Shown one piece after another: positions 31,693 to 47,053 of a stretch of 64,000 nucleotides of DNA. Both the position numbers and the translations under genes were made by a program. Source of the stretch: Flavobacterium nitrogenifigens (GTDB taxonomy: Bacteria; Bacteroidota; Bacteroidia; Flavobacteriales; Flavobacteriaceae); contig NZ_QJRI01000162.1 of the NCBI RefSeq assembly GCF_003254565.1, positions 1 to 64,000 on the forward strand. Direction: 5' to 3'. Below the pieces are notes generated by a model, which was given only the letters and a program-made list of their open reading frames with translations, did no database searches and had not been told where the DNA came from. The number at the start of each line of letters is the position of its first letter. Positions within the stretch are counted from its first letter, which is position 1.

Positions 31693-31757
31693 TTTTTATA
31701 AATCTTTTTTTCAGGCGCAACAAGCAGGCACCCGATGCATTGAGAAACGGTGCGTTC

Positions 31758-32049
31758 CCTTTCCGGCAGCGCCTCCCCAAAAACTTTTATTATTTCCGAA
31801 GTTATGCCAATAACTGATTTTTGGGGATGCCGCAGGATTCAAAAATAGCTGGTTGTAGTTAATCTGAACAATGATTAGATCTTTCAAAAAGAAGCCAGAG
31901 ATTAGAAAAGCTAATCTCCGGCGGCTATAATAACAAAAAAGTCCGATTTTAGTGCTCCTTGAAATTCTCCTAAAAATCGCCCTTAATCCCATGAACTTCA
32001 GATACGAAAATAATATAAAAATCCGAACTATTTTTTTGATTTAAATCAA
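31758..32049 (-). ncRNA. Candidate structured RNA, copy 1 (about 292-nt repeat)
   Basis: Non-coding sequence resembling 45762-46056 over its whole length (roughly three quarters identical by eye). On the minus strand it begins at an FNR box with a -7-like element. It then holds a hairpin with arms 31895-31905 and 31911-31921, and ends in a stem CCCCAAAAA (31775-31783) / TTTTTGGGG (31818-31826) whose loop differs completely from copy 2 while the stem is kept. It precedes the YoaK remnant, so it could be a 5' leader rather than an independent RNA. No coding frame is conserved between the copies as far as can be seen. Confidence 0.5.
32005..32049 (-). promoter_or_regulatory. FNR-type box and promoter upstream of RNA copy 1 / YoaK remnant
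   Basis: Perfect box TTGATTTAAATCAA (32036-32049), then 23 nt, then TATTTTCG (32005-32012) on the minus strand, a near match to TAnnTTTG. The box centre would be near -41, the position of class II FNR/CRP activation. Confidence 0.65.
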
Positions 32050-32146
32050 GTTTAAGCCCAGTGGAAAAAAGGTTCGAATGGACTTAAAAGAAAACTGAAA
32101 AACAAATTCCCATTGCTTTAAGCGATAAAAAAAGCCTTAAGCCCAT

Positions 32147-32899
32147 TTATCTTGATCGGATGATGTACAGCTCGTTTGGCCCGTAAGCTTTGCGCCTCAC
32201 CAAAAAGCTTACACAGGAGATTTTTTGAAATTCAGCCGGCACCCGGTAAAGGCTTATGCCCAGTTCATAATCGTTTCTTTCATATCTATTCGAGAAAAAA
32301 TTCCTGGCCGACACTTCCCCATCCTTAAGCTTCAGAACTTCCTTCTGCATCTTTAAACCAATATAGGCAGTGCCCTGCCAGGCCATATTTCTGCCCGGTC
32401 CGTTGGGGCTGCCAAGCCCCCTAAAAGGATTCAAGCTAAGGGTGCAATTCTCTTTATGAAAGTGCACCACGCTGACCGCTTCATTTTTAGCGCCGAGCAC
32501 GTCCTCCAATTTCACGCAATGGCCAAACTCGGTCTGCTGCCCCATTTCCTCTGCAGATTCCATTTTTGAAAGCAGGACGCCCTTCGCATCAAATATATAG
32601 GTGCAGTTCCTAATTATGGCCAGGCTCTTCTGCTCATCATAATACTGATGCTTTAAAGGGAGAATGAATTTATGGTTTACAGTGTCAAAATTTATCCTTT
32701 CAGACAATAGGTCCTGGGGAACAGCTTTTGAGACGGGAACAAGGGCATAATTCTCCGCGCTGATGCCCATCCGGTAATCTTTATAGGCGGCATCATACCG
32801 CATTTTTCCATACAATGCCGATAGCCAGTAAACTGCAGCACACAGTATGAAAAGCGCAGCTCCCAATAAAAGCATGGTTATCCTTCTTCTTGCCATCAA
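32147..32899 (-). CDS. Membrane-anchored hypothetical protein
   Basis: 250 aa, one N-terminal transmembrane segment (ITMLLLGAALFILCAAVYWLSALY) and a soluble, probably extracytoplasmic domain with four Cys. No family recognised. MARRRIT one codon later is an alternative start. It ends 49 nt downstream (minus direction) of the next gene's stop and may form an operon with it. GC-richer codon use resembles the transfer block rather than the xylan locus. Confidence 0.7.
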   Translation of the reverse strand: MMARRRITMLLLGAALFILCAAVYWLSALYGKMRYDAAYKDYRMGISAENYALVPVSKAVPQDLLSERINFDTVNHKFILPLKHQYYDEQKSLAIIRNCTYIFDAKGVLLSKMESAEEMGQQTEFGHCVKLEDVLGAKNEAVSVVHFHKENCTLSLNPFRGLGSPNGPGRNMAWQGTAYIGLKMQKEVLKLKDGEVSARNFFSNRYERNDYELGISLYRVPAEFQKISCVSFLVRRKAYGPNELYIIRSR

Positions 32900-32948
32900 A
32901 TTGGCTGTTATGGTTATCTATTCTATAAGTTCCCTTTAGGGTAAATTC

Positions 32949-33875
32949 CTATCGGCAGCTCTTCCTGATCTCATCGAGGATCCTATTGGACCTGTTGAAA
33001 ATAATCTCTTCCTCCCCGCCGCCGTTTGGCCTCCAATGCTCCGAGGTTATGGCTTTATTTCCGCTTTTATAGGTCCTTCTTGAGACCAATGCGCTTTTCA
33101 TTGCGTCTTTGGTCTCGATATCCGCTTTCGTCCCTAAATATTTCGCCGCAACTTTTGGCATTTCCCAAAAGCATTCCGTCCCATCACCAATGTCTATTAT
33201 TCTGCTTTGGGAATCTTTCGGAAACAGCCTGTTGAGCCAGAACTGCTTTTCATATTTCGCATAGATCGGAACGGCGTTCAAATAAAGCCGATACCCAGCA
33301 TAATGTTCTGTAAAATCACTGTCCGCAATATAATTGTAATAGGCAATGGCTTCAATGGACTGCCATGCCATAAAACAGCTCTTGTCAAACAGCGGCATTT
33401 CAACTGTGATTCCCCTATCATCGGCAGACAGCCTATTTCGCCTCTTCCGCATCAGTTTGAGCCGCTTTTCGGAAACCGCAGCCCCAAATATCAGACCATG
33501 GATTAAAGCCAGCGCAAAAAATGCGGATAGGCAGACGGCTATCCAGCCTGACAGGCCGATATCCCATTTTAATTGAGCGGCAAAAAACAGCGGCAAAAAT
33601 CCTGGAATTGCGAATATTAAAAGCAACGCAATAAAAACGCCTAAAAATCCATATCGCGGTTTTGGACTTAGAAGCTTTAGCATCGCTGCTTGAGAAAACC
33701 ATCCTGAAATGCCCCTAAAAAGAATCGATAGCGCAACAATGATAAAAACAGCAGGAATTATAAGAGGGCCTACTGTTCTGGTTCCGCTTTTCAGATCAAA
33801 AAAGGCCATTGCCAGACCTGCTGCCAGCATAAAAATCCCAGCGGCCTGCTTAATTTTTCTCTCATTCAAATCCAT
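32949..33875 (-). CDS. Membrane protein with four N-terminal helices and a PH-like cytoplasmic domain
   Basis: 308 aa. Hydrophobic segments at about 12-30, 36-50, 75-95 and 108-135 are followed by a soluble C-terminal domain beginning DDRGITVEMPLFDKSCFMAWQSIEAIAYY. That pattern resembles bacterial PH-like membrane proteins that read a conformational strand-turn-strand followed by W-x-I. No function can be assigned. It lies 49 nt upstream of the anchored hypothetical gene. Confidence 0.7.
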   Translation of the reverse strand: MDLNERKIKQAAGIFMLAAGLAMAFFDLKSGTRTVGPLIIPAVFIIVALSILFRGISGWFSQAAMLKLLSPKPRYGFLGVFIALLLIFAIPGFLPLFFAAQLKWDIGLSGWIAVCLSAFFALALIHGLIFGAAVSEKRLKLMRKRRNRLSADDRGITVEMPLFDKSCFMAWQSIEAIAYYNYIADSDFTEHYAGYRLYLNAVPIYAKYEKQFWLNRLFPKDSQSRIIDIGDGTECFWEMPKVAAKYLGTKADIETKDAMKSALVSRRTYKSGNKAITSEHWRPNGGGEEEIIFNRSNRILDEIRKSCR

Positions 33876-34135
33876 ACAAGCTTTTCAATAACATGCATTC
33901 CGTTTTCCAGTAGCGCTCCATTTCAGCTCTTCCTATTCTTCAGCAATCCGATTGCCGATCCATTAAGAACCGCCCTCAGTGCAATGCAAATTTCAGAAAA
34001 AAGACAATCTGGATTCAGCCCAATATAAATTAGCCCGGAACAATCCGATATCCGCAAAGGTTTTAGATTGATTCGCGTCAATGGACCAGGGCATAGTAAA
34101 AAAAAGATATTGGAAACAGAAGAAGTGCAGATCCG

Positions 34136-34432
34136 CTAAATCGGCCTTTTTGCCGCTATGCGCTGCAGGCCTAAAATGGTGAGGCAGCTTTCATCGGTAT
34201 CGGAATCTATGGCAGCAAGCCCAAAATTTTCCAATTCCAATAAGGCTTCCATGATTTTTGTCTCATTTTCAATACCGTTGGCCGATGAAAACCAAGAGGA
34301 AGAAGGGCTGCTAAGCGCTTCGGCCATCTCTTCAAAACTAAGGCTTCTGGGATAAGCGCTGCCAAGAACGATCAGCATCTGATCTAAAAACTCGCTCTTG
34401 TTCTGCTTCTTGCCTATATTCGTCTGATCCAT
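34136..34432 (-). CDS. Small helical protein, paralogue A of the 102-aa family
   Basis: 98 aa from MDQTNIG (34432); this start matches the initiation context ATGGATCA of paralogue B at 46603. The chain FLDQMLIVLGSAYPRS-SFEEMAEAL, IMEALLELENFGLAAID, LTILGLQRIAAKR looks like a small winged helix. More than half of its residues are identical to paralogue B, and both lie immediately downstream of a decayed Crp C-terminus. Function unknown. Confidence 0.7.
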   Translation of the reverse strand: MDQTNIGKKQNKSEFLDQMLIVLGSAYPRSLSFEEMAEALSSPSSSWFSSANGIENETKIMEALLELENFGLAAIDSDTDESCLTILGLQRIAAKRPI

Positions 34433-34503
34433 ATCTTTTTGCATTTAAAACCATAAGTGGCTAATATATAATTTATATTCCGATATCATCGGCTTTATCC
34501 GAA

Positions 34504-34650
34504 TTAAAAGTTGGCGACATTGGCCAGCTGCTGCAAATCCAGAAGCTATATCCTTCTGTCTTCCATCCAGCTAAGCCTCTCATCTTTAAAATCATAAAGC
34601 ACCCTAGCCAGGGTTTCGTTAATGGTGCCCACCATATTGGCCAGACTAAA
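34504..34650 (-). pseudogene. Remnant of a Crp/Fnr regulator C-terminus (copy B)
   Basis: The minus strand reads SLANMVGTINETLARVLYD, FKDERLSWMEDRRI, stop, LLDLQQLANVANF, stop. This aligns residue by residue with the last 50 residues of the intact Crp protein at 42545-43228. The in-frame TAG at 34546-34548 replaces a Gln codon. The sensor domain is absent upstream. It precedes the 98-aa paralogue A gene. Confidence 0.8.
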
Positions 34651-34761
34651 ATCATTTTTTTATCAGAAAATTAAGCCGTAAATTGTACTGGAATAATTGG
34701 GTGGCAGTTATTTTTGAGAACAGAAAAAAGAAAAATGTTTTTGGTACCCTACGCATTGGCT

Positions 34762-34788
34762 CCAGAGGTTAGCCGCTCTAATCTCTGG
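34762..34788. repeat. CCAGAG-type hairpin, copy H2
   Basis: CCAGAGGTTAG (34762-34772), 5-nt loop, CTAATCTCTGG (34778-34788). It is one of four near-identical palindromes (others at 31895, 45902 and 46906). No FNR box lies at the usual distance from this copy; a degenerate TTGAA-TTCAA palindrome is at 34838-34850. The 34433-34960 stretch otherwise contains only the Crp remnant and a terminator. Confidence 0.65.
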
Positions 34789-34902
34789 TTTCTGCCCCCT
34801 AATTTAATTCATCTGCAGCCAATTATCAGACCCTATATTGAACGCTTCAATGAGCCCAAAATCAAAAATAGACAAAGGGCGTTTGCTTTGCGAAGATTTA
34901 AA

Positions 34903-34934
34903 AAGCCCCTGAAAACATAAGTCTTCAGGGGCTT
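34903..34934 (-). terminator. Rho-independent terminator of the phosphoesterase gene
   Basis: AAGCCCCTGAA (34903-34913) and TTCAGGGGCTT (34924-34934), 11-bp perfect stem followed on the minus strand by TTTTT. It lies 27 nt after the stop codon. Confidence 0.9.
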
Positions 34935-34960
34935 CATAATTTAAAACATTCGGCAATTGG

Positions 34961-36508
34961 TCACTGAAACCTTTTTATAAATTCCATCATATCGCCAATG
35001 GTCTGTATCTCTTCTTTTTGGGTATTGCCCAGCGCTCTGGCCTTCTCAATATGCAGCAGGCTGCTTAGCATGGCTTTCTGAAGCCCGTTTAAGGGATCCC
35101 CGCTGGTGTCCGGTTCAGGAAGCAGCTCCCTTAAGTCAATCCCTGACGGAATTTCAGGCCAATCTGCCCTTTTCTGATTAGAAAAAACTTCTGTAAATGG
35201 CAAAACCTCAGGATCCCTGTCCCTATCGGTCAGCGGATCCATCTGCCATTTCTGGCAAACCGTCTTTATGAATGAAGTGTGCTCAAATTGTCCGCTGACT
35301 ACCGTCTGCGGCTGGATATAGGAAGACACCATTATCATCGGAACGCGCACCCCTAGACGGTCAAAGCCGAAACCGCACTCGCCTTTCATGCCAGCAGCAG
35401 GCGGTACCGTACCTGGCGGCGCCACATGGTCATAGCAGCCTCCGTGCTCGTCATGGGTGATGATGAAAAGTATCTTGTCCCTTTTGGGGCTTTTTCTGAT
35501 GGCATTGTACACTTCGCCGATGAGCTCGTCTCCCAGCTTCACCGTCCCGACAGCCAATTCATGGTTCACTGCCGACGGATGCTGGTCATTGTGCTTATGC
35601 AGAAACTGGGGTTCCACAAAGCAGTATTGCGGCAGGGTGCCAAACTCCAGATCAAAGAAAAAATCGAGATGCCCGTGCGTATTGTCTTTTCCCTCGCCGG
35701 TTCCATTGACTATATAGGTCAGGCTCAAAGGCGCAATAGGCGAATAGACCTTCCATGAAACATTATTATCGTTCATGCGGTCAAAGATGGTCGGCAGCGA
35801 CCAGACATCCTTTATCCATGAATCCATCCCATGCAGATCGCCATCAATGCCTGGAAAACCTGTTCCATCCTCACCAAGGGGATTAATTACTTTTCCCCCT
35901 GAACTTGCCGCATGCCAGAATGCCCGATTGCAGTAGGTCTGGCTCGGCACCGAACAGTACCAGTGGTCAAAAACCGCAAACTCTTTGGCTAAAGTGGCCA
36001 TTGCAGGAATCTGGTCCGGCTCAAAGCACTGCATGATCACCTCATACTGTTCATAGGTAGGATTATCAATGCTGTAAGCTGACCTGAGCGTATTTTCGTA
36101 ATCGTTGACAAAGCCATTCATGCTGGGCTCGCCCGGGGAAGCCGGCAGATTATAAGGCGGTGCCATTTTATAGTCAGCCGCTCCTACATTGCTCTCAGGG
36201 ATGATGGAATTGAAAAGCTGCGTATTGACATGAGGGTATTCCTCACCCGGATCCGGATAGGGCATCGAGTAGCTCACCGCCCGCGAAGGGGAAATGTCCG
36301 TTTTCTCTGGATAGCCCGCCGCTCTGGCTGGAATGGGGTTCGCATAGTCAATATTGGGATTATAAAGCCCTTCAAAAGGCTTTTCAGGTGGCAGTTCGCC
36401 ATTTTTATAGAGATAGCCTAACAGATTGTCAAATGAGCGGTTCTCCAGCATAAGCACCACAATATGCTCAAAAGTTTCCAGTCCGTCAAATTGGTTTGCA
36501 TTTTCCAT
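34961..36508 (-). CDS. Phospholipase C / acid phosphatase-like phosphoesterase
   Basis: 515-aa member of the phosphoesterase (PLC/AcpA) family that hydrolyses phosphodiesters or phosphomonoesters. HIVVLMLENRSFDNLLGYL at residues 15-33 is the family metal/nucleophile motif; WYCSVPSQTYCNRAFWHA near 185 and IITHDEHGGCYDHVAPP near 348 supply further ligands. The protein starts directly at the catalytic domain with no signal peptide or Tat motif, unusual for exported PLC enzymes. It has its own terminator and is monocistronic. Substrate unknown. Confidence 0.88.
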   Translation of the reverse strand: MENANQFDGLETFEHIVVLMLENRSFDNLLGYLYKNGELPPEKPFEGLYNPNIDYANPIPARAAGYPEKTDISPSRAVSYSMPYPDPGEEYPHVNTQLFNSIIPESNVGAADYKMAPPYNLPASPGEPSMNGFVNDYENTLRSAYSIDNPTYEQYEVIMQCFEPDQIPAMATLAKEFAVFDHWYCSVPSQTYCNRAFWHAASSGGKVINPLGEDGTGFPGIDGDLHGMDSWIKDVWSLPTIFDRMNDNNVSWKVYSPIAPLSLTYIVNGTGEGKDNTHGHLDFFFDLEFGTLPQYCFVEPQFLHKHNDQHPSAVNHELAVGTVKLGDELIGEVYNAIRKSPKRDKILFIITHDEHGGCYDHVAPPGTVPPAAGMKGECGFGFDRLGVRVPMIMVSSYIQPQTVVSGQFEHTSFIKTVCQKWQMDPLTDRDRDPEVLPFTEVFSNQKRADWPEIPSGIDLRELLPEPDTSGDPLNGLQKAMLSSLLHIEKARALGNTQKEEIQTIGDMMEFIKRFQ

Positions 36509-36686
36509 ATTCCAGCTGTTTTTTTAAGTTACTAAATATAAGTAAATTACGGCAATTAAAGCCAAGCCTGCGCAAGTAGTTCTACCTGTTTTAAAAGCTG
36601 GCCCCAGAGGCGCACTTATCCTAGCTTGAAATTGCTTTACTCCTAAAAAAGAATGGCCGTTTTATCAGTCTTTAACCGCTTCAAAT

Positions 36687-37865
36687 TTAACTCTTGGGTG
36701 AATAGGTCCAGCCATAAATCCAATCAAGCCTTTGGATCTGCCTGCCTATAAAAAAACCGATTAAGCGGTCACGAAACCATGCTCCCATTGGATTGCTCCT
36801 GGTTTTAGAATCACCAGTTTTTCTGGCGCTTTTTATTATTTTTTCTACTCTGGGCTGGCGTTCAGACTGAAAAATCTGAAACGCAGTGCTGTAGTCGCCA
36901 TGCAATTTTAATGACTCGGCAATTGCAATTGTGTCTTCTAGAGCCAATGACGCTCCCTGTCCAATATGAGGAGAAATGCCGTGCGCCGCATCTCCAATAA
37001 GGCAGACCCTGCCTTTATGCCAATGCAGAAGCTTAGGCACATCGTAAATCGGATAGGCAATAATCTCATGGCTATTTTTTATAATTTTAGAGAACAGAGG
37101 ATCATCATTTTTATGGACATCTATTAAATGTTTCTGAATTTCGGCTTTTAGCGTTTTTTCCATTTCCTGCCGCTTTGGCTGCAGCTCTCTAAAGTAATTG
37201 TTGAACCACCAGACTTCCCCCTTATCAGAAACCGAATAGGCAAAAAATCCCCTTTCGCCAAAAGTCATCTGTATTGAATCCAACGGCTCTGAAAGTTCAG
37301 GAATCTTCGCATAGCCGCCAGTTGAGATAAGTTTGGTGTATTTGAGAGCGGAAACTCCAGGAAACAGCTGTTTTCTAACCTCGGAAAACATTCCGTCACA
37401 GCCTATCATAATATCGCCTACGGCTTCAGTTCCGTCAGCAAAATATGCGGTCACTTTTCTGTCTGCCTCACTATACCTTAGAAATTTTTTATTATAGTTT
37501 ATTTTTATACCTGCAGCTTTTGCCGCCATTCGGACATATCGGTTCAGGTTTGCCCTTTTAATCTGAATGGTCTCTGCTCCATACTGCTGCTTCTGATAGG
37601 CCGTGCCCAGTTCTGCTATCTGCCTTCCTTTGGAATTAAAAAATTTCATCGAACCGGGAGCATAATCTTCTTTGAGCAGCTTCAAATCAACAAATTCTTT
37701 CAATACATTCAGACCATTGGGAGTGACGCCTAAAAAGGCGCCCTCTTTTATATTCTCTTCTGATCTCGATTCAAATATTTCAGGCTCAAAGCCTATTTTT
37801 TTCAGCTGTAGAGCCAGTATTGGCCCTGCTGCGCCCGCGCCTATTATAATCGCTTTTTTATCCAT
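36687..37865 (-). CDS. FAD-dependent aromatic-hydroxylase-type monooxygenase (TetX/PHBH-like)
   Basis: 392 aa from MDKKAIIIGAG (37865), chosen because the Rossmann GxGxxG (GAGAAGP, 9-15) then lies at the normal distance from the N-terminus; an upstream start would add 35 residues of unlike composition. Second FAD motif GDAAHGISPHIGQGASLALED near 290-310 and the DG motif GCDGMFSEVR near 155 are typical of group A flavoprotein monooxygenases. It is divergent from an AraC regulator. Resistance (tetracycline-modifying) and catabolic roles are both possible; sequence alone does not decide. Confidence 0.85.
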   Translation of the reverse strand: MDKKAIIIGAGAAGPILALQLKKIGFEPEIFESRSEENIKEGAFLGVTPNGLNVLKEFVDLKLLKEDYAPGSMKFFNSKGRQIAELGTAYQKQQYGAETIQIKRANLNRYVRMAAKAAGIKINYNKKFLRYSEADRKVTAYFADGTEAVGDIMIGCDGMFSEVRKQLFPGVSALKYTKLISTGGYAKIPELSEPLDSIQMTFGERGFFAYSVSDKGEVWWFNNYFRELQPKRQEMEKTLKAEIQKHLIDVHKNDDPLFSKIIKNSHEIIAYPIYDVPKLLHWHKGRVCLIGDAAHGISPHIGQGASLALEDTIAIAESLKLHGDYSTAFQIFQSERQPRVEKIIKSARKTGDSKTRSNPMGAWFRDRLIGFFIGRQIQRLDWIYGWTYSPKS

Positions 37866-38128
37866 TGCTTTTCTATTTGATTTATAATCCGTTTTATTCC
37901 TTAAATAATTAGCGCAAAACACTGATCCAGCAATACCCTGAGTTTCCCCATTGTATCTCTTTTCCTGCAAGCCATAGCTTCAATAATCCTTCTGTGAAGC
38001 ATCAGTCTGCAGAGTTTTTTCTAAATTTGCTATTGTCTGTTCCCTGCTTTGTCCCACTATGCAAAACTATCAAGCTTGCAGAAAACGGAGTTGCAAAAAA
38101 AGGAGTCAGGCTGGCAAATTAAGGAGCA

Positions 38129-39109
38129 ATGGGATTTGAATTAAAAAATGATAAAAAGGCGCTTGAAATAGCCTTTGATGAAAATGATTTTAGCAATCAC
38201 GGCTTCAAAGAAGACGTTTTTGAAATGAACCTGCCTTTTGGGCAAGTAACGGGCAGGCAATGGCTTTTTGACGGCATCAAGATTCTATATTCTGAAACTA
38301 ATCTTGACAGCCCTGTCGAACTGGACTGGAAAGGAGATACGGAATTGGTAGCCATGCATTTTAACCTCCAGGGAAGAACCTCCATCAAACAGGATGGAAT
38401 GGACAATTCTTTTGAGCTGAATAAAAATCAGCACAATTTATTCTATGGCACCAATGCTGAAGGCAAAATGAAATTTGATGAATTGCGGATGAAGTCATTT
38501 ATGATTCAATTCGAAAAGAATTCTTTTTTGAGAATGTCCAAAGACGGGAATGAATCCCTTAAAAGGTTTGCCGGCAAAATAGCTTCGGGAACCCCTTCGG
38601 CTTTTTCAAATTCCAATCTCAATATCAATCTGCCCATACAGACCTGCATCAATTCTATTTTGAATTGTGAGTACTCCAGCGGATTAAAAAGATTGTTTCT
38701 TCTATCCAAAACAATTGAGCTGCTTGTTCTCCAGGCGGAATCATTCAATGCTTTTCAAAATTCAAAATCCCAATACATAAAACATGATTACGACAAAGAG
38801 CGGATCGTATTTGCCCGCGATTATCTGGGTAAAAATATTGAGTCGCCTCCCACACTGGCAGAATTGTCCAAAATAGCAGGAATAAACGAATACAAGCTGA
38901 AGCGGGGTTTTAAAGAAATGTTTAATCAGACAGCCTTCTCCTACCTGTCTGACTTGCGTTTAGAGCTGGCAAAAAACGATCTGCTTGACGGCAGAAAACT
39001 GGCTTCTGAAATCGCATTTGAATTGGGCTACTATTCATTGCAGCACTTTAGCAATGCATTTAAAAAAAAGTTCGGCATTGCCCCAAGTCAGGTTAGACGC
39101 TCTAGATAA
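38129..39109 (+). CDS. AraC-family transcriptional regulator
   Basis: 326 aa with the two C-terminal helix-turn-helix motifs (LAELSKIAGINEYKLKRGFKEMF and ASEIAFELGYYSLQHFSNAFKKKFG, about 240-320). The N-terminal domain is of the cupin-free, PchR-like type seen in Bacteroidetes. It is divergent from the flavin monooxygenase with a 263-nt intergenic region, so regulation of that gene is likely. Confidence 0.88.
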   Translation: MGFELKNDKKALEIAFDENDFSNHGFKEDVFEMNLPFGQVTGRQWLFDGIKILYSETNLDSPVELDWKGDTELVAMHFNLQGRTSIKQDGMDNSFELNKNQHNLFYGTNAEGKMKFDELRMKSFMIQFEKNSFLRMSKDGNESLKRFAGKIASGTPSAFSNSNLNINLPIQTCINSILNCEYSSGLKRLFLLSKTIELLVLQAESFNAFQNSKSQYIKHDYDKERIVFARDYLGKNIESPPTLAELSKIAGINEYKLKRGFKEMFNQTAFSYLSDLRLELAKNDLLDGRKLASEIAFELGYYSLQHFSNAFKKKFGIAPSQVRRSR

Positions 39110-39188
39110 GTCAGTGTAGCTGCTTCTTTATTACATAAAAACACCTGTTCTCACTAACACTAACTGTTCTCAATCATGGAAAAACGCC

Positions 39189-40323: not shown

Positions 40324-40563
40324 ATGCTGGAAAGCTTAAGAAAAATGAAGAAGTTTGAAATAAAAAAGACAGAGCAGAACCAATGGCTGGTATCCCACAA
40401 CGAATTCCCCAGGTTCACCTGTCTTTTTGAAGATAAAAAATTCCATTACTCAAGGACCATAACAGGGCTTTTGGACCCCACAGGCAGCCCTGAAGAAATA
40501 CAGCCGCTCCAGAAAATGGAAAAATGGCTCTCGCGCTACCATATGGACAAAATAAACGGCTGA
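40324..40563 (+). CDS. Small hypothetical protein
   Basis: 79 aa from MLESLRKMKKFEIKKTEQ; the ATG at 40345 (MKKFEIKK) is an alternative. Beta-rich start (KKTEQNQWLVSHNE, FTCLFEDKKFHYS) and a helical end. It is the only plus-strand gene in its neighbourhood. No family recognised; weak evidence beyond an open frame with plausible composition. Confidence 0.45.
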   Translation: MLESLRKMKKFEIKKTEQNQWLVSHNEFPRFTCLFEDKKFHYSRTITGLLDPTGSPEEIQPLQKMEKWLSRYHMDKING

Positions 40564-40646
40564 AAATTTTGCGCCAACCAATTTCGGCCAGGCACATTTG
40601 CCTGATCCGTGCCCAAAATAGTGCGCTGGAACTTGCTTCGCCAGTC

Positions 40647-40674
40647 CGCTAACGCTCACGTGCAGCGTATAGCG
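40647..40674. repeat. GC-rich palindrome in a non-coding spacer
   Basis: CGCTAACGCT (40647-40656) pairs with AGCGTATAGCG (40664-40674) with a one-base bulge, around CACGTGC. It lies in the 232-nt spacer between the small gene and the HD-domain gene. No other copy was found in the window. Confidence 0.45.
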
Positions 40675-40795
40675 GGAAGAGCTCATAAAAAAGCATTGCA
40701 TATGCCTAAAAAATCTGAGCCATCGCTTCTCTGGATTTCCCTCCTTCCAATAATTCAACAGTCACTCCCCCCATATGAATCTGCTAGTGAAGATT

Positions 40796-41563
40796 TTATG
40801 GAGCCAATCTGTTATAGTGCTGCAGTTTCATTCTGCCAACCAGGCCATTGAGATAATCCAGCAGCACCAGCCCTTCTTTTTCAGTAATCCTGCCGGCCAA
40901 ATAGCTGTTCAATTCATCATTTTCATCGGCATACAGCTTGATTTTTTCCTGATTATTGCCAATGATGCTGAATTCCAGATTGGCAATCCTATCAGCGAGT
41001 TTGATTATGATTGCATTTTGGTTCAGGACTATTTTTTCATACATTGCCTGTTTCCTTTCTTTCCTGTTTTCCCCCTTGCCATCAGTCAGGGACCATACTA
41101 TTTCAAAAATATGTATCCCAAACCTGTCAATTATTTCATCCCTGTCCGTATCTGTATCTTCCAGCACATCATGCAGCCAAGCGCTGCTCCATAAATCGAT
41201 ATTCATTTCAGTGTCAGGCAAAATGCCATTGCGCAGCAATACGCTAACTGCATTTACAAGGTGCACCTCATAGGGGTATTTTCCATATTTCTGGTTTCCA
41301 TGCTTTTCAGCCGCAAAACTTCTGGCCTCATCCACTTTTTTTCCTAATGCCCTTATGGCTGTCTTATAATCCATGGCGTCGCCTTCATCGAGCCAGCCGG
41401 AAGCATACCTGCTCATAAAAGATTTTAAGGAGCTCAAATCGCCATTCCACCGTCCATTTTGGAAAGATTCCAAAGTGCCTGCAGAATCTCCAATTCTGCC
41501 TTCTTTAATTCTATAGAGCGTTTCGATGCCGTTGTGGCTGCTGATATAATATTTATACTCCAT
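40796..41563 (-). CDS. HD-domain protein, (p)ppGpp-hydrolase (MESH1/SpoT-HD)-like
   Basis: 255 aa. An N-terminal region (1-65) of unknown type precedes an HD hydrolase domain resembling SpoT: HGNQKYGKYPYEVH (His101), WLHDVLEDT (His131-Asp132) and KLADRIANLE (Asp191), the expected metal ligands and order. No synthetase, TGS or ACT domain, so it would be a stand-alone hydrolase. Roles in alarmone breakdown or another nucleotide phosphohydrolysis are inferences. A five-unit pentanucleotide repeat lies directly upstream, in its promoter region. Confidence 0.8.
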   Translation of the reverse strand: MEYKYYISSHNGIETLYRIKEGRIGDSAGTLESFQNGRWNGDLSSLKSFMSRYASGWLDEGDAMDYKTAIRALGKKVDEARSFAAEKHGNQKYGKYPYEVHLVNAVSVLLRNGILPDTEMNIDLWSSAWLHDVLEDTDTDRDEIIDRFGIHIFEIVWSLTDGKGENRKERKQAMYEKIVLNQNAIIIKLADRIANLEFSIIGNNQEKIKLYADENDELNSYLAGRITEKEGLVLLDYLNGLVGRMKLQHYNRLAP

Positions 41564-41591
41564 TTTGGTAAGATTTAATAGAACTTATATT

Positions 41592-41616
41592 TTAGATTAG
41601 ATTAGATTAGATTAGA
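41592..41616. repeat. Pentanucleotide tandem repeat (TTAGA)5
   Basis: Five perfect tandem TTAGA units, extended by related GATT-rich bases on the right, lie 29 nt upstream of the HD-domain gene's ATG and 20 nt after the end of the YoaK gene. Length change by slippage would alter promoter spacing. Confidence 0.85.
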
Positions 41617-41635
41617 TCGGATTGGATTTGATCTG

Positions 41636-42364
41636 CTATTGTTTTCTTTTTAATTTGCGCGCAAGCAGGATTACATTTAGCTTAATATTGTCATAAATTA
41701 AGCCCGCAAACAATATAAGTCCTCCAAGAAATAATGCCTGCAGCCCTATTTTTGAATAAAAAACGCCTCCTGTAATGCCTCCAATGAAAAAAAAGCTGAT
41801 AATAATTATCCGCAGCTTAATTGAAGAGGAAAGTTCAGCTTTCCTATTTTGCTCCCTATAAAAGAAAAGCTGGGACAGCTCAATGCCCAAATCGGTAAAT
41901 AGGCCGGTTAAATGGGTGGTCCTCACTACGGAATTTGAGATTCTTGTAACAAAAGAATTCTGCATTCCCATTGCAAAAAGCAGAATAAAGGAAATTAAAT
42001 TTGGAAAACCGGCCTTTAAGCCATCTCCAAAGAAGGCAATAAAAAATAAAATTGCAATCTCAATGCAGGCAGGAATGAGATGCACGATATTTTCTCTTTT
42101 GCGCACTACCAGCTCCATTAGAAGGCTCGATGTGAAAGAGCCCATAAAAAAGAAAAATATATAGCCAAAGCACGTCAATGCCGCTAAGAGATCAAGCTTG
42201 AAGATTTCATCTACAAAAAACGCAAAATGGCCCGTCACATTGGTGGTAAGGGTCTGGACTGAAAAAAAACCTGCCACATTTACCATCCCGGCAACAGACG
42301 AGAGAAGGGCGGCAATTTTTAGATTGTGCCTCAAACTTCTTTTTTTTCCTCGGTGCTTAAACAT
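41636..42364 (-). CDS. YoaK/DUF1275 family membrane protein
   Basis: 242 aa from MFKHRGKKRSLRHN (42364); this start corresponds to that of the truncated copy at 31692, whereas a longer frame (to 42493) adds an unlike leader. Five to six transmembrane helices; VAGMVNVAGFFSVQTLTTNVTGHFAFF near 25-50 and NSFVTRISNSVVRTTHLTGLFTDLG near 140-165 are DUF1275 signatures. Function of the family is unknown. It follows the Crp/Fnr gene by 180 nt on the same strand, so it is probably within its regulon. Confidence 0.88.
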   Translation of the reverse strand: MFKHRGKKRSLRHNLKIAALLSSVAGMVNVAGFFSVQTLTTNVTGHFAFFVDEIFKLDLLAALTCFGYIFFFFMGSFTSSLLMELVVRKRENIVHLIPACIEIAILFFIAFFGDGLKAGFPNLISFILLFAMGMQNSFVTRISNSVVRTTHLTGLFTDLGIELSQLFFYREQNRKAELSSSIKLRIIIISFFFIGGITGGVFYSKIGLQALFLGGLILFAGLIYDNIKLNVILLARKLKRKQ

Positions 42365-42544
42365 TTCCAGCAGTGCTTTTATAAGTTGGCGAAGCATTAC
42401 TTTTAAAATGCCTTTCATTTGTAAATAGGGCAATTTTTCTTTTTGCCTCCTTAACATATTGCTGCAAAGAAGGGGCAGCTTTCCTCTCTTCAAACAAAAT
42501 TCTGCCCAGCCTGGCCAGATCAGTTAATCTTCATAGCCTTGCCA

Positions 42545-43228
42545 TCAATAAAAATTGGCTATGCGGATCAATTGCTGGAAATTAACCAGCTGGATCTTGC
42601 GCCCTTCCATCCATATAAGATTTTCATTCTTAAAATCATGGAGCACCCTTGCCAGAGTTTCATTTACAGTGCCTACCATTTTGGCCAGATCCCCCCTGGA
42701 AAGGGTAATAAAAACATTTTTCTGGCCATCATCTGTTTTATATTTATCATGCAGAATCAATAGGCTAAGCGCTACGCGCTCCCTTACGGTCCGCTGCGAT
42801 AAAACAGCCATTAGATTTGCCACCACGCTAAACTCATGGCTGAGGCATTTTAAAAGCAGACGCGAAAACACTGCAGAATTATTAAGAATATTAAAAAAAT
42901 CCTCTTTGGATATAAATGAAATGACTGAATTTTCAATGGCCACAGCGTTATCTCCATATGCCTTCTCGCTTAGTATGGCCGTATAGCCGAAAAACTCTCC
43001 TGAACTGTAGATGTAAATAATCTGCTCCCTTCCATCATTATCGACCTTGTGCTTTTTGATCTTGCCTGTCTGAATATAAAAAATGCCTGTAGGCAGCGTC
43101 CCTTCGGTAAATACTGTCTGGTTTTTAGCATACTTTCTGCTTTGCATCACCTTTTCAAGCAGGTCCCTATCGCTTTGGGGCAGCTCATTTAAAATATACT
43201 GGTTATTGAAGATGAATTTTGAAATCAT
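42545..43228 (-). CDS. Crp/Fnr-family transcriptional regulator
   Basis: 227 aa with an N-terminal cyclic-nucleotide-binding-like domain (about 15-130) and a C-terminal winged helix (LSRGDLAKMVGTVNETLARVLHDF). Recognition-helix Glu190 and Arg194 correspond to residues that read TTGAT half-sites in FNR. It lacks the N-terminal Cys cluster of E. coli FNR and has a single Cys, so direct Fe-S oxygen sensing is unlikely. Its own promoter contains the longest FNR palindrome of the window, implying autoregulation. Four further boxes form its probable regulon; two decayed copies of its 3' end exist nearby. Confidence 0.92.
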   Translation of the reverse strand: MISKFIFNNQYILNELPQSDRDLLEKVMQSRKYAKNQTVFTEGTLPTGIFYIQTGKIKKHKVDNDGREQIIYIYSSGEFFGYTAILSEKAYGDNAVAIENSVISFISKEDFFNILNNSAVFSRLLLKCLSHEFSVVANLMAVLSQRTVRERVALSLLILHDKYKTDDGQKNVFITLSRGDLAKMVGTVNETLARVLHDFKNENLIWMEGRKIQLVNFQQLIRIANFY

Positions 43229-43241
43229 AGCTGTATCAAAG

Positions 43242-43286
43242 CTACAATATTTTTCCCTACTCCATATAAAACTTGATTTAAATCAA
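43242..43286 (-). promoter_or_regulatory. Autoregulatory FNR-type box and promoter of the Crp/Fnr gene
   Basis: TTGATTTAAATCAA at 43273-43286 is the core of a perfect 22-bp palindrome (43269-43290). On the minus strand TATTGTAG begins exactly 23 nt after the box; a perfect TAGCTTTG -7 box also lies at 43237-43244. The gene's ATG is 44 nt from the box. Confidence 0.72.
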
Positions 43287-43289
43287 GTT

Positions 43290-43560
43290 TTATACGCCGT
43301 TCCAATCAGCTGGATCGATTTCAAAACCTTTTGCTTTTGCAGCATTGACCCCTGAAATGATAAGCCGGCATATGTCGCTGTGCCTTGCAGACCGGTCCGT
43401 CGCAAATTTTAAAAGCGTTAAAGAATCTGCCAATGAAGAAATCTCTAGCGGCGCACCTATTGTCCAATGAAAGAGCCATAAGGGCATTTAAAGAAATCCT
43501 ATCTAATCTGAATGCTGGCCGATAAAAACACAGAAAAAACAGCCAGTGCAAGCGCTATAG
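43290..43560 (-). pseudogene. Possible decayed reading frame between FNR box and terminator
   Basis: Two overlapping minus-strand frames look like one broken protein: LNALMALSLDNRCAARDFF in one frame, then ICRLIISGVNAAKAKGFEIDPADW in the other, ending in a stop at 43290. No family recognised. The remaining bases to 43718 hold a terminator only. Confidence 0.3.
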
Positions 43561-43665
43561 CTATAAAACTTGGCAACCGGCAATGCAAAACAAGTGCGCT
43601 ATCATAGCGCATAAGGCAAAAGGCTGCCGCCACTGCCAATGCCATATCAGATAATCTAAAAAAAG

Positions 43666-43692
43666 GGAAGAGCATCAGTTAAACGCTCTTCC
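43666..43692 (-). terminator. Rho-independent terminator after DUF983 gene
   Basis: GGAAGAGC (43666-43673) and GCTCTTCC (43685-43692) with an 11-nt loop, followed on the minus strand by a run of T. It ends the methyltransferase-PhnA-DUF983 transcription unit. Confidence 0.9.
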
Positions 43693-43717
43693 TTTTTCCG
43701 GTCAGGAGTTTTTTAAA

Positions 43718-44119
43718 TTATTCTTTTTTTATTGCCGCTTTCGGATCATAGCAGACAAACATATTGATATAAATATTTCGGGATAATCGCAGCAATATCG
43801 GAAACAAAATTACCAGCACTGCAGTAATTGCAATAAACGATGTTTTTATTCCGGAATCAAAAATAAGATATGAGATGGCAAAAACAGCAATTCCAACCCC
43901 GACATTCAACCCATAGCTTACATACATTGCGCCAAAAAAGAAAGAAGGCTCTATCTGATATCTTAGCCCGCAATGGCTGCACTTCTCATGCATTTTTAAA
44001 ACAGAGCCCAAATGCAGCAGGTTTTTATCCACGTACATATTCCCATTCTGGCATTTAGGGCAGCTTCCCGTTAAAATGCTATTTAATCTGCTTCCTTTCT
44101 TCATCTTCGAAATATCCAT
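43718..44119 (-). CDS. DUF983 zinc-ribbon membrane protein
   Basis: 133 aa. Two CxxC pairs, Cys20/Cys23 and Cys47/Cys50, form a zinc ribbon, followed by two transmembrane helices (about 68-88 and 94-112). This matches DUF983. Function unknown; sometimes near cytochrome oxidase genes. It is last in a three-gene run, 59 nt after the PhnA gene, and has a strong terminator. Confidence 0.85.
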   Translation of the reverse strand: MDISKMKKGSRLNSILTGSCPKCQNGNMYVDKNLLHLGSVLKMHEKCSHCGLRYQIEPSFFFGAMYVSYGLNVGVGIAVFAISYLIFDSGIKTSFIAITAVLVILFPILLRLSRNIYINMFVCYDPKAAIKKE

Positions 44120-44178
44120 TTAAAGCTCCAAATCCATGAGCCACGGTTTAATTTTAAGTTTATAGATGCCCTGAGGGA

Positions 44179-44757
44179 CTATCTCTTTACAAATTTGGTT
44201 AAAATCACGATAGCCTGCCCCTCTATTTTCCCTTCGATCTGCTCATGGTTGCCATGGACCAAACGGATGTTTCGAACTGCCGTGCCGACTTTCGCATTTA
44301 AAGACGAACCTTTTACATCCAAATCTTTGATAAGGGTCACCGTATCGCCATTTTGCAGGATATTGCCATTGCTGTCTTTGTGGAAATTAATGGCCCCGTC
44401 ATCGGTATGGTCTCCGGCTGCTTTTGCCCATTGCAGATTTTCATCATCCAAATACATCATATCCAGCGCATCGGCTGCCCAGCTTTCATTGCGAAACCGG
44501 TTAAGCATGCGCCATGACACCACCTGCACGGCCGGCACTTCGCTCCACATTGATATTGGCAGAAAATTTTTCCAGAAAGCATCATCCAATTCCTCTTTTT
44601 TTTCAATTTGGCGAAGGCATTTCTCATTGATTAAAATCCAACCGTCCGCCCCTTTATTTTGGGCTGGCGGAACTTCATAAGCAACTAGATTTTTATTGAT
44701 GTCGCTCAATTCGCAGACATTTCCGCTTCTCTTTTTTAATAATTCCTCTAATTTCAT
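44179..44757 (-). CDS. PhnA domain protein
   Basis: 192 aa. The C-terminal part (GDTVTLIKDLDVKGSSLNAKVGTAVRNIRL to IEGKIEGQAIVILTKFVKR, about 128-192) is the PhnA domain, an SH3-like fold. The N-terminal half carries two Cys (residues 15 and 49) and a YLDDENLQWAKAAGDHTDDGA linker typical of longer Bacteroidetes versions. Despite the name, a role in phosphonate use is not established. Middle gene of the FNR-box-preceded unit. Confidence 0.82.
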   Translation of the reverse strand: MKLEELLKKRSGNVCELSDINKNLVAYEVPPAQNKGADGWILINEKCLRQIEKKEELDDAFWKNFLPISMWSEVPAVQVVSWRMLNRFRNESWAADALDMMYLDDENLQWAKAAGDHTDDGAINFHKDSNGNILQNGDTVTLIKDLDVKGSSLNAKVGTAVRNIRLVHGNHEQIEGKIEGQAIVILTKFVKR

Positions 44758-44879
44758 TTTATTTTATTTGGAAATAAAGTTTACAGGCTTCTCAGAACAT
44801 ATTTTAAATCCATATATCCTTCACAGTCCCTATTTTAATTGATTCTATTTGGCAGCGTTTATAGATTTCATGCTCCAAT

Positions 44880-45476
44880 TTAAGCCGTTTTTCTCCAGAA
44901 GCTTAATACCCCGCCGTGCGAAACGGATTCTAGGCTGAAACTCTTTGGAACCTCTCTGCAATTGCTCCAGTAGGTAACCAGTTTTGTGCCAATGGGAGTT
45001 TTCTCCAGCTGGCCTTTAAGATAAGCTGTATATAAATTATACAGTTCCTCGCTTGGATCAATTGATTTGTCAATGCGGGCCGTTAGATCTATATTTTCCT
45101 GAAATGAATTGAAAAAATAGAAAGCGTCATAATCCAAAAAAGATATCTCCATAATATTTGAGTGTATGAATTCTGCATTATCAATCTTATATTTTTCGGC
45201 AATTTTCCGCGATAATTTTATAAGCGATTCCCTTTGCTCGACCCCATAAAAAATCCCATTGGTTAAAGCGGCCCCCACAAGGCAGAATTTTCCAGCCCCC
45301 GAGCCTATATCCAATACCCTTTTACCAGGTTTGTCCACCAAAAAACCAGCCGCTTTTCTGGCTATTTTTACAGGTGTCCAATGGCGGGCAGCCAGCTTCT
45401 TTATCCTAATAGGGTACACTTGGTTAAACTCGTTATCATCAATAGATCTATTTTGCTTGAGCTGTTCAAAAATCAT
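44880..45476 (-). CDS. Class I SAM-dependent methyltransferase
   Basis: 198 aa. SAM-binding motif I VLDIGSGAGKFCLVG is at about 54-68, with an acidic motif II end (YGVEQRE) and YFFNSFQENIDL as motif IV region. The substrate cannot be predicted. First gene of the unit methyltransferase-PhnA-DUF983 and preceded, 124 nt upstream, by an FNR box. Confidence 0.82.
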   Translation of the reverse strand: MIFEQLKQNRSIDDNEFNQVYPIRIKKLAARHWTPVKIARKAAGFLVDKPGKRVLDIGSGAGKFCLVGAALTNGIFYGVEQRESLIKLSRKIAEKYKIDNAEFIHSNIMEISFLDYDAFYFFNSFQENIDLTARIDKSIDPSEELYNLYTAYLKGQLEKTPIGTKLVTYWSNCREVPKSFSLESVSHGGVLSFWRKTA

Positions 45477-45568
45477 TTTATAAATACTTTTGCATTTGCT
45501 GCAGTTGGCTTAATTTTCCCTGCTAAATGGAATAATTTTACAAGTGGCAAAAATATAGAGAGTCCCAA

Positions 45569-45613
45569 TATATTTAGCTGATTAATATCTTTATAAAATT
45601 TGATTTAAATCAA
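45569..45613 (-). promoter_or_regulatory. FNR-type box upstream of the methyltransferase unit
   Basis: TTGATTTAAATCAA (45600-45613); 23 nt further on the minus strand comes TAAATATA (45569-45576) and, slightly later, TATATTGG. This is the weakest -7 match of the five but keeps TA at the shared position. Confidence 0.6.
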
Positions 45614-45761
45614 AAAAAAAAGAATGGACAGAAAATGTAATATAACTGGCCACTTTGGCAGCCGAATATTATCCATTAGAGATAAATAAATAACCCATGG
45701 CATAAATAGAGGGCAGGATATTTTTAGAATCTGCCCTTAAAGCCGGAAAAGTGCCATCTTC

Positions 45762-46056
45762 TTTCCAGCAGCGCTTCCCCAAAAAGCTTTTCCAATTAAA
45801 GCAAAAGCAGCAAACAGCTTTTTTTTGGGGATGCCGCAGGATTCAAAAATAGTTGGCTATAGTTAAAAATGAATTAATAGTAAGATCCCTTGCAAAGAAA
45901 ACCAGAGATTAAAGAAGCTAAATCTCTGGCGGCAATAATAACAAAAAAGTCTGATTTTTAGCTGTCTGAAATTCTCCTAAAAATCATTCTCATTCCCATG
46001 AACGTGAGAAGCGAAAATAGCATAAATATCCGAACTATTTTTTTGATTTAAATCAA
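45762..46056 (-). ncRNA. Candidate structured RNA, copy 2 (about 295-nt repeat)
   Basis: Counterpart of 31758-32049. From the FNR box at 46043 on the minus strand it holds, in order, a GATTTTTAG/CTAAAAATC stem, the CCAGAGATT/AATCTCTGG hairpin (45902-45929), a well-conserved stretch, and a terminal stem AGCTTTTTTTTGGGG (45816-45830) / CCCCAAAAAGCT (45777-45788). The stem is longer than in copy 1 and its loop is unrelated, as expected if pairing is under selection. No YoaK gene follows this copy, so here it would be a free-standing transcript ending before the methyltransferase promoter. The flanking stretch 45614-45761 and 46057-46294 shows nothing else. Confidence 0.55.
46012..46056 (-). promoter_or_regulatory. 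FNR-type box and promoter of RNA copy 2
   Basis: TTGATTTAAATCAA (46043-46056), 23 nt, TATTTTCG (46012-46019) on the minus strand; the box, spacing and -7-like element are identical to the promoter at 32005-32049. Confidence 0.68.
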
Positions 46057-46294
46057 GAATTCCGTCAAAGGATTCCGATTTCAATTATAAATCAGCAGCG
46101 ATATAAGAGCTGCCCTAAATTAAGGCTCCAAAACGCAAAGCCCTTTATTAAGCCCACGACATTGCCACACTCCTTTCGTTTTATCTTTATATTGCACGCA
46201 TTCTTCGCGTATGCATCTTGATTGAACCGCATTATATTTCCCATTCTCCATTTCAGAAAGGCATTGCAGATGGAAATGCAGACCAATAAAAAAA

Positions 46295-46603
46295 TCATAC
46301 AAGCCGCAAAAAAAATCTTTTTCCGGCAATCCGCTCCAATCCTAAAACGCTGAGAGAGCTTTCATCGCTATTAGAATCTATAGCCACAAGGCCTAAACTT
46401 TCCAATTCCAATAAGGCCTCCATGACTCTTGACTCAATTTCGATGCTGCTGCCCGATAAGGATGCGCCGCTGCCAGGGCCGCAAAACATTTCGGCCATTT
46501 CTTCAAAAGCCACGCTGCAGGGATACGCATGCCCTAGAACGATCAAAATCTGATCTAAAAACTCGCACCTGCCTTTCTCCTTCCCAATATCCATTTGATC
46601 CAT
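46295..46603 (-). CDS. Small helical protein, paralogue B of the 102-aa family
   Basis: 102 aa, MDQMDIGKEKGRCEFLDQILIVLGHAYP onward, closely related to the protein at 34136-34432 (FEEMAE, MEALLELE, GL-AIDS, DES-L-LGL-RIA-KR shared). The same arrangement of decayed Crp end, then this gene, is seen in both places. Possible small DNA-binding or regulatory protein; no family recognised. Its last residues differ from paralogue A because the frame runs on. Confidence 0.7.
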   Translation of the reverse strand: MDQMDIGKEKGRCEFLDQILIVLGHAYPCSVAFEEMAEMFCGPGSGASLSGSSIEIESRVMEALLELESLGLVAIDSNSDESSLSVLGLERIAGKRFFLRLV

Positions 46604-46675
46604 ATATTTCTAAAATTCAAAACCGTTATAGGCTTATATATAACTTACATTCTGATATCTTCCGCTTTATTCGGA

Positions 46676-46760
46676 CTAAAAGTTAGCGGCATCGCCCAGC
46701 TGTGAAAAATTGAACAGCCGTATTCCAGATCAGCCTATCATCATTAAAATGGCGGCCATC
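46676..46760 (-). pseudogene. Remnant of a Crp/Fnr regulator C-terminus (copy E)
   Basis: The minus strand reads HFNDDRLIWN in one frame and then RLFNFSQLGDAANF, stop, in another. Together these match the last 30 residues of the intact Crp protein (FKNENLIWMEGRKIQLVNFQ...ANFY), with a frameshift at the join. It lies 73 nt upstream of paralogue B. Confidence 0.7.
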
Positions 46761-46905
46761 TTTGATCTGTCTAATGCCGGCAGACAGTACTCAAATAGCT
46801 TGCCGAAACCGAGAAAAACCCTTCTGGGGAAATTGGCAATGAGCTGAATTAAAATAGCCGGGTCATGTCAAAAAACTAATATCATAATTTGCCTAAATAA
46901 TAAAA

Positions 46906-46931
46906 CCAGAGATTTAGCGGCTAATCTCTGG
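46906..46931. repeat. CCAGAG-type hairpin, copy H4
   Basis: CCAGAGATTTAG (46906-46917), 3-nt loop, CTAATCTCTGG (46921-46931). The distance from its right end to the FNR box at 47040 is 109 nt, compared with 115 and 114 nt for the copies at 31895 and 45902. Conserved spacing suggests it is part of the transcript made from the box. Confidence 0.7.
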
Positions 46932-47008
46932 CCCTATAGTTCCATAACAAATAAATCCTACTAAAATCCTGATAATAGCCGCTGCTCAATTCTAGGAGTC
47001 TCCAAAGA

Positions 47009-47053
47009 CTAAAATACAATTAAATGCTTTGCAAAAAATTTGATTTAAATCAA
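47009..47053 (-). promoter_or_regulatory. FNR-type box and promoter upstream of hairpin H4 and paralogue B
   Basis: TTGATTTAAATCAA (47040-47053), 23 nt, TATTTTAG (47009-47016) on the minus strand. The next real gene in that direction is the 102-aa paralogue B, about 400 nt away across the Crp remnant. The 47054-47384 stretch to its right shows no gene. Confidence 0.65.

Follow-up and report, generated by a model that had tools for sequence, protein, structure and literature searches.

The stretch analysed here (the window) comprises the first 64,000 nucleotides (nt) of contig NZ_QJRI01000162.1 of Flavobacterium nitrogenifigens and carries transfer genes of a conjugative element together with crp, a gene for a Crp/Fnr-family regulator. 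We consider it probable that this regulator, which lacks an Fe-S cluster, is an activator whose binding to the palindromic box TTGATTTAAATCAA governs a small local set of genes, a regulon located on the element. The boxes, their conserved spacings, a covariation between box and recognition residue, and a set of conserved terminator-ended units can all be seen in the DNA; from these we infer that the regulator binds and activates, how the genes are grouped into operons, and that the RNAs are transcribed and base-pair with other messages. Two operons, crp-yoaK-HD and methyltransferase-PhnA-DUF983, would belong to the regulon, together with three untranslated RNA genes of ~105-112 nt (sR1-sR3), which would act through such base-pairing.

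The window holds five exact copies of the 14-mer TTGATTTAAATCAA, at 32036, 43273, 45600, 46043 and 47040, all as listed in an earlier, sequence-only reading of this DNA, where 0.005 are expected by chance (0.44 per 5.44 Mb genome) from first-order dinucleotide composition. A genome-wide scan, which that reading had proposed, returned 6 exact copies in 5,436,059 bases on 182 contigs, five of them in the window and the sixth on another contig, within a 797-aa open reading frame (ORF), so that the 14-mer is not frequent genome-wide; a looser form of the box, TTGATTNNAATCAA, occurs in nine places. Across seven genomes selected for carrying this crp, TTGAYTTAARTCAA has 25 matches, 21 of which can be assigned by position to crp, the methyltransferase or the RNA units. 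That all five boxes share one strand, a point also raised earlier, adds little weight, because the box is palindromic and most of the surrounding long ORFs run in the same direction.

Three of the boxes lead non-coding units that we regard as candidate small RNA (sRNA) genes. The box at 32036..32049 (-) lies 23 nt from the -7 element TATTTTCG and precedes sR1 (31889..32001, -); that at 46043..46056 (-), again 23 nt from TATTTTCG, precedes sR2 (45896..46008, -); and that at 47040..47053 (-), 23 nt from TATTTTAG, precedes sR3 (46902..47007, -). Each unit is about 105-112 nt long and ends in a CCAGAGATT..AATCTCTGG hairpin with a T-rich tail. The terminator-like hairpin of sR1 (31922-31894) is the only one of these found by the terminator scan, and the others are seen in folds, where sR2 shows an inner hairpin, a terminator hairpin and a T-run. 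sR1 and sR2 are 84% identical over 170 nt. Judged by sequence features only, the units have what defines an sRNA gene, namely a promoter of their own and an intrinsic terminator around a conserved non-coding unit of 50-300 nt. The two non-coding repeats noted previously are present and, with the unit at 32036, are more aptly called three small-RNA-like genes.

According to PMC6847099, F. johnsoniae promoters have a TAHHTTTG element whose T lies at -12, and we used this numbering to compute the positions of box centres. RNA-type promoters have a -7 element at 23 nt in 10/10 copies across five genomes (two of sR1, three of sR2, four of sR3 and one of a further unit, sR5, with the decayed unit sR4 left out), which places the box centre at about -42.5; the copies in one of these genomes, G662, are near-duplicates of those in the window. 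Relatives of sR1 were found in G662, those of sR2 in G662 and F. zhairuonense, and those of sR3 in G662, F. tistrianum and Flavobacterium sp. Root186. In the last two, the sR3 RNA is 95-97% identical, versus 82-84% for the sequence downstream.

Among 398 genomes of the genus, an RNA model of sR3 (R2) matches in 2, the own genome included, and a model of sR1 and sR2 (R1) matches strongly in 3 (the own genome, G000; G600; G662) and weakly in 5 others. A DNA search with sR2 hit 1/299 genomes of the family (its own) and 19/398 of the genus, with matches of more than 60 nt only in G000, G662 and G600, and no known Rfam family matched the window at the gathering score. G000 and G662 also carry a weaker R1 match, sR4, which in the window (34688..34794, +; E=7e-4) appears as an sRNA-like unit in decay: its terminator hairpin is of the type described above, and its box, at 34642, is degenerate. 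When 14 weaker RNA-model matches were checked for a box, sR5 of F. zhairuonense and the Root186 counterpart of sR4 had one; the 12 without a box include sR4 of the window and of G662, where it is degenerate. Weak R1 matches in G646, G671, G381, G690, G383 and G702, which have no upstream box, were taken as chance or terminator matches. sR5 was recovered with R1, a model that contains no box, and has the box TTGACTTAAATCAA exactly 23 nt before TAATTTAG; its box, spacing, terminator and location support it as a predicted unit, despite its weak model match.

The terminator-ended units could instead be leaders, containing short peptide ORFs or attenuators, or the leftovers of box-led genes that have since been lost. 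Both sR1 and sR2 begin with ATGGGA, and sR2 has a frame of 13 codons whose start and stop are retained in F. zhairuonense; 5 of its 13 residues, however, differ there. The corresponding frame of sR1, which precedes a truncated yoaK, extends for 93 codons, but it has no stop at that point and reads through the terminator hairpin, and sR3 has no ATG frame of at least 8 codons. In addition, the methyltransferase behind sR2 has a box of its own and the next ORF past sR3 is ~300 nt away, so the units of the window share no common kind of downstream gene. We therefore regard the leader or leftover explanation as unlikely and treat sR1-sR3 as putative sRNA genes. Two further repeats occur in the window. 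Behind sR1 and sR2 there is a second repeat (31806-31862 and 45810-45866) with a CCCCAAAAA..TTTTTGGGG inverted repeat, and a 26-nt copy of the -7 region of sR3 (GCATTTAATTGCATTTTAGTCTCTGG) is found at 61316-61341 (-), with a box-like ATGATTTTAATCAA at 61378 and no ORF of at least 150 aa in the surroundings.

The regulator itself (crp, 42545..43228, -) is a protein of 227 aa with both a cyclic-nucleotide-binding beta-roll (PF00027, 74.3 bits; cut-off 27.5) and a Crp-type helix-turn-helix (PF13545, 47.4 bits; cut-off 27), which places it in the Crp/Fnr superfamily. It scores below the cut-offs of the NCBIfam models for FNR (NF008365, 81.7 bits vs 228) and CRP (NF008732, 65.5 bits vs 266), and its best solved relative by sequence is 2gau. 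A single cysteine, residue 128, is present, and the cluster that would hold a [4Fe-4S] centre is missing, as had been noticed before. The recognition helix, TVNETLARVLHDF, contains NETLAR and so retains the Glu and Arg of FNR-type DNA specificity, in agreement with the earlier suggestion that it reads TTGAT. Close relatives of this crp occur in 10/398 genomes of the genus, and all 865 plasmid relatives of the regulator (865/865) are under 60% identical to it.

Evidence that this regulator reads the box comes from its orthologs. One scan of GTDB contigs yielded 57 loci. The ortholog counts use the 42 close orthologs among them (L035-L076, 66-99% identical) and exclude 15 distant paralogs (L077-L091, 31-36% identical); the crp loci of G302, G600, G662, G682 and G693, which are genes already included or the near-copy of the window's gene, were not recounted, nor was a truncated, boxless crp gene in G514 (L191). 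The box starts 50-59 bp ahead of the crp start codon in 42/42 orthologs. ETLAR is preceded by Arg in 25/42, always with a GTGA box (25/25), and by Asn, Ser or Thr in 17/42, always with a TTGA box (17/17). When the recognition helix is left out of the tree, two changes are needed to explain the GTGA group, both forced by well-supported branches, and three extra Flavobacterium orthologs beyond the 42 (G642, G433 and G531) obey the same rule (3/3).

In CRP numbering, the residue preceding ETLAR is presumably position 180, and it is through this assignment that the pairing of regulator and box rests on a known code. In the CRP/FNR family, residue 180 (R180) correlates with base 3 of the site (G3), as given in PMC1274295. 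The orthologs would then represent a natural specificity switch that has obeyed the CRP/FNR recognition code twice, and the code predicts that an N-to-R change before ETLAR should swap the preference between TTGATTTAAATCAA and GTGATTTAAGTTAA. The covariation of box and residue supports the local regulator as the likely reader of the TTGAT-type box. Together with the two independent switches and the location of 21 of the 25 boxes, the match in 42/42 orthologs also supports the original proposal of a cargo-borne Crp/Fnr regulon with a local regulator reading TTGAT.

Could a Crp/Fnr protein of the host chromosome read the boxes instead? The genome does encode three more Crp/Fnr relatives as open frames (E below 1e-16) and one weaker one, but these are just 24-32% identical to the regulator of the element, the nearest at 32%, and the subfamily has this single member there. 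As the exact box occurs elsewhere in the genome only once, within an ORF, and it is the recognition residue of the element regulator's own subfamily that tracks the box, we find a host reader quite improbable and retain the element-encoded regulator.

Activator sites of class II are centred near -41.5 and those of class I near -61.5. The sequence-only reading saw class II geometry at all five promoters, with TA exactly 23 nt after each box. The TA is indeed there on the minus strand in 5/5 cases, but it belongs to a credible -7 element only in the three ahead of the non-coding units. At these RNA promoters the geometry, and only the geometry, is that of class II, and the regulator would make class II-like contacts. 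At the crp box (43273..43286, -), an element fitting TAnnTTTG, TAGCTTTG, stands at 28 nt and just TATTGTAG at 23 nt; the box centre would be at about -47.5 and the leader of the window's crp is very short. The gene would be autoregulated, with either sign possible. TAnnTT lies at 27-28 nt in 7/7 Flavobacterium orthologs among the 42 and at 21-24 nt in 10/10 TTGA-type Chryseobacterium crp genes.

At the methyltransferase promoter (box 45600..45613, -), TAHHTTT[GA] is found at 44 nt in 5/5 genomes (TATTTTTG in the window), which would put the box centre at about -63.5, exactly 21 bp farther out than at the RNA genes (44 - 23 = 21 bp, two helical turns); here the contacts would be class I-like. 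The same spacing recurs on the divergent side of the crp box, with TAHHTTT[GA] in 41/42 orthologs, at 44 nt in 38 and at 45 nt in 3, the lone exception being L035, which adjoins tra genes. After thinning at 85% identity the divergent -7 element is still found in 21/22, and in 16/22 a divergent ORF of at least 100 aa starts within 260 nt (none was found so near in 6); these ORFs we take to encode phosphoenolpyruvate (PEP) carboxykinase or a glycine-cleavage-H-like protein. At both the methyltransferase promoter and the divergent sides, class I is a statement about geometry only.

The case for class II at all five promoters rests on the universal TA, on its retention at the methyltransferase promoter (TAAATATA at 23 nt in the window) in 4/5 genomes, and on the 21-24 nt spacing in Chryseobacterium. 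In F. zhairuonense, however, the methyltransferase TA has become CA while the 44-nt element is retained in 5/5, and at the Flavobacterium crp genes it is the element at 27-28 nt, and not the 23-nt word, that fits TAnnTTTG, all of which makes uniform class II activation very improbable. A weaker alternative, TATATTGG at 27 nt, is also found at the methyltransferase promoter in 4/5 genomes. Given the measured -7 spacings, the apparent rule of five times 23 is thus a mixture of three real cases, one class I-like promoter and one at 28 nt. Under the mixed arrangement that we favour, a Bacteroidota activator with a predicted site would serve two promoter geometries two helical turns apart, so that class I and class II activation at the unusual Bacteroidota promoter becomes directly testable. 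Separately, in the Chryseobacterium loci L045 (3989, +) and L051 (7145, +), TTGATTTAAGTCAA occurs 23 nt ahead of TACTTTAA, apparently preceding a short ORF.

Several observations weigh against the regulon as we propose it. The 42 orthologs are interrelated, so their counts are not independent events. Among the GTGA-type crp genes, TAnnTT lies at 23 nt in only 4/25, with none at 21-28 nt in 21/25; the 28-nt spacing of the Flavobacterium crp genes is out of phase with 23 and 44; and the -7 element of the window's crp, TAGCTTTG, has G at -10, a base avoided at that position in F. johnsoniae promoters (PMC6847099). Neither the window nor G662 nor F. tistrianum has the divergent -7 element, and it is also missing at the second crp of F. 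zhairuonense. As to the RNAs, most weak model matches are boxless (a box in 0/6 outside the module and in 0/9 further non-module matches); the sR5 model match is weak (E=0.0057 over 30 chosen loci) and was not reported by whole-genome model scans of F. zhairuonense. sR4 breaks the spacing rule: in the window its box is degenerate and TAAATTGT occupies the 23-nt position, and its Root186 (G711) counterpart has a box, TTGATTAAAATCAA, but no -7 element at 23 nt. In Root186 the 60-bp stretch ahead of the sR3 box is as conserved as sR3 itself (95%), though in F. tistrianum it is 73% identical, and sR2 is 86.6% identical to its relative in F. zhairuonense where the downstream flank reaches 92% and 85.9%, so that sR2 is not singled out by conservation alone. 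Fold z-scores are modest (-0.55 to -3.7), and covariation amounts to one compensatory pair, not above shuffles, among 4 distinct sequences. Finally, when sR1-sR3 were scanned against 41 gene starts of the window (some set by hand; RNAs taken without their terminator hairpins; 30 mononucleotide shuffles), the best duplexes did not exceed the median of the shuffles in strength.

Behind crp lie yoaK2 (41636..42493, -; DUF1275, PF06912), which is likely co-transcribed with it, and a gene for an HD-domain, RelA/SpoT-like hydrolase (40796..41563, -; PF13328). The crp-yoaK-HD order is repeated in F. zhairuonense, and a yoaK relative also follows crp in L035-L038, L046, L047, L049, L056, L059-L062 and L075. 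The second operon would consist of genes for an S-adenosylmethionine-dependent methyltransferase (44880..45476, -; PF13847), a PhnA/YjdM-domain protein (44179..44757, -; PF03831) and a DUF983 protein (43718..44119, -; profile match), downstream of which there is a terminator-like hairpin (43692-43666). Of the YoaK genes assigned to the regulon earlier, yoaK2 stands, whereas yoaK1 (31244..31780, -), behind the 32036 box, is an N-truncated DUF1275 ORF and probably a pseudogene, and that box leads a non-coding-looking unit; because its match is limited to the C-terminal half of the domain (profile positions 105-191 of 193 only), yoaK1 is ruled out as an intact regulated gene. Around chromosomal crp orthologs (L036, L075, L039 and L041, ~4-10 kb), the divergent genes are presumably those for PEP carboxykinase, glycine cleavage H and T and an H-like protein, as well as a methyltransferase paralog and a ketobutyrate-ligase-like gene, although not every locus has all of them. 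A glycine/one-carbon theme for the regulator is therefore possible.

The CTnDOT-type transfer genes lie in the 20-30 kb region (PF19044, PF07863, PF12508 and PF13595/PF13571), with TraG, TraJ and TraM among them; the PF13595/PF13571 products are, we presume, TraN/TraE-type. G662 has the same five boxes in the same gene order as the window, and F. tistrianum has three boxes, one of them variant, adjoining tra genes. F. zhairuonense and Root186 carry the methyltransferase-PhnA-DUF983 genes, crp and some of the RNAs, with no match to the window's tra proteins in the 40 and 60 kb examined, respectively. Since these two genomes hold parts of the module in stretches without tra matches, the module is not tied to the conjugative element. 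F. zhairuonense also has a second crp (L131 15717-16394, +), 68% identical and with its own box, ~1.5 kb behind which lies sR5 (17914, +). The second crp of G600 (L192), a gene in its own right, has the box but not the divergent -7 element.

The window's crp was previously said to be the only Crp/Fnr gene nearby. The box does sit at its promoter, but a remnant of a second crp is also present at 34507..34659 (-), consisting of 46-51 residues, 61-67% identical, with an in-frame stop. Near the sRNA-like units there is also a pair of duplicated 102-aa genes (34136-34444 and 46295-46603, -), the latter without a Pfam or NCBIfam match. The truncated yoaK, the crp remnant, sR1, sR4 and the other member of that pair all fall within 31.2-34.8 kb, a region that resembles a second copy in decay. 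Although these local duplicates, and an sR1/sR2 homology that starts at the box edge, might suggest that the palindromes are repeat debris from cassette duplication with no regulatory role, this is extremely improbable, as the flanks differ between the boxes of crp, the methyltransferase, sR3 and sR5, and yet the box and its fixed distance to a -7 element are kept across genomes.

The box edges are also where several homologies break. In Root186, the upstream flank of sR2 (94% over 101 bp) directly abuts the methyltransferase promoter (95% over 167 bp), and the joint falls inside the 14-mer; the sR1/sR2 homology and that between sR2 of the window and of F. zhairuonense both begin within one base of the box, and the F. 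tistrianum joint lies outside it. These few cases fit deletion or exchange between identical boxes. That the 14-bp operator generally serves as a joint for the gain, loss and exchange of promoter-RNA cassettes by such recombination is a speculation that we consider rather unlikely; if true, the small RNAs that a mobile element places under one regulator would form a set joined at the operators and open to rearrangement.

In Escherichia coli, the FNR regulon uses a TTGAT-type palindrome in class II geometry and FNR activates the ~100-nt sRNA FnrS. The window shares the type of palindrome, the class II geometry and a ~100-nt, here candidate, sRNA in the regulon. It differs in a regulator without the N-terminal cysteine cluster (one Cys), in the Bacteroidota -7 element, and in having three RNA genes in one locus and a regulon on a conjugative element. 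HcpR is likewise a Crp/Fnr protein without the FNR cysteines, with a Bacteroides-type HcpR2 motif, GTAACnnnnGTTAC (PMC1274295), and it resembles the window's regulator in this, in the correlation of residue 180 with base 3, and in an RNA gene, snoA, beside the regulator. In contrast to the window system, HcpR has a different motif, binds heme and controls hcp, and snoA RNA levels are independent of hcpR (PMC13370916).

Small RNAs on integrative or mobile elements are also on record, such as RteR of CTnDOT (a title cited in PMC10994844) and sgm-sRNA of SGI1 (PMC9299015). Going by their descriptions, these resemble the window's units in being element-borne, and the window has CTnDOT-type tra genes as well; the parts of this literature covered mention no Crp/Fnr box for either. 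Rfp18 of Flavobacterium psychrophilum, an sRNA with predicted hairpins, is widely conserved in the genus (PMC9723704), unlike the units described here, which, compared by description, have strong model matches in just 2 (R2) and 3 (R1) of 398 genus genomes. The narrower literature searches for a system of this kind found no paper, and among the papers listed by a broader one only PMC9723704 was examined; this is not proof of its absence from print. A counterpart within the phylum involves Cur, a Crp-like, chromosomal carbon regulator. In Bacteroides thetaiotaomicron, Cur activates the ~100-nt sRNA MasB (PMC10994844). Compared by description, the pair resembles the window in its regulator and ~100-nt sRNA but has a single sRNA. 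With Cur-MasB and HcpR-SnoA as precedents in the phylum for such regulators linked to RNAs, the window system is not a new kind; what it would add is a family of candidate small RNAs that sit on a mobile element and would be turned on by a regulator of the element's own, carried along with it.

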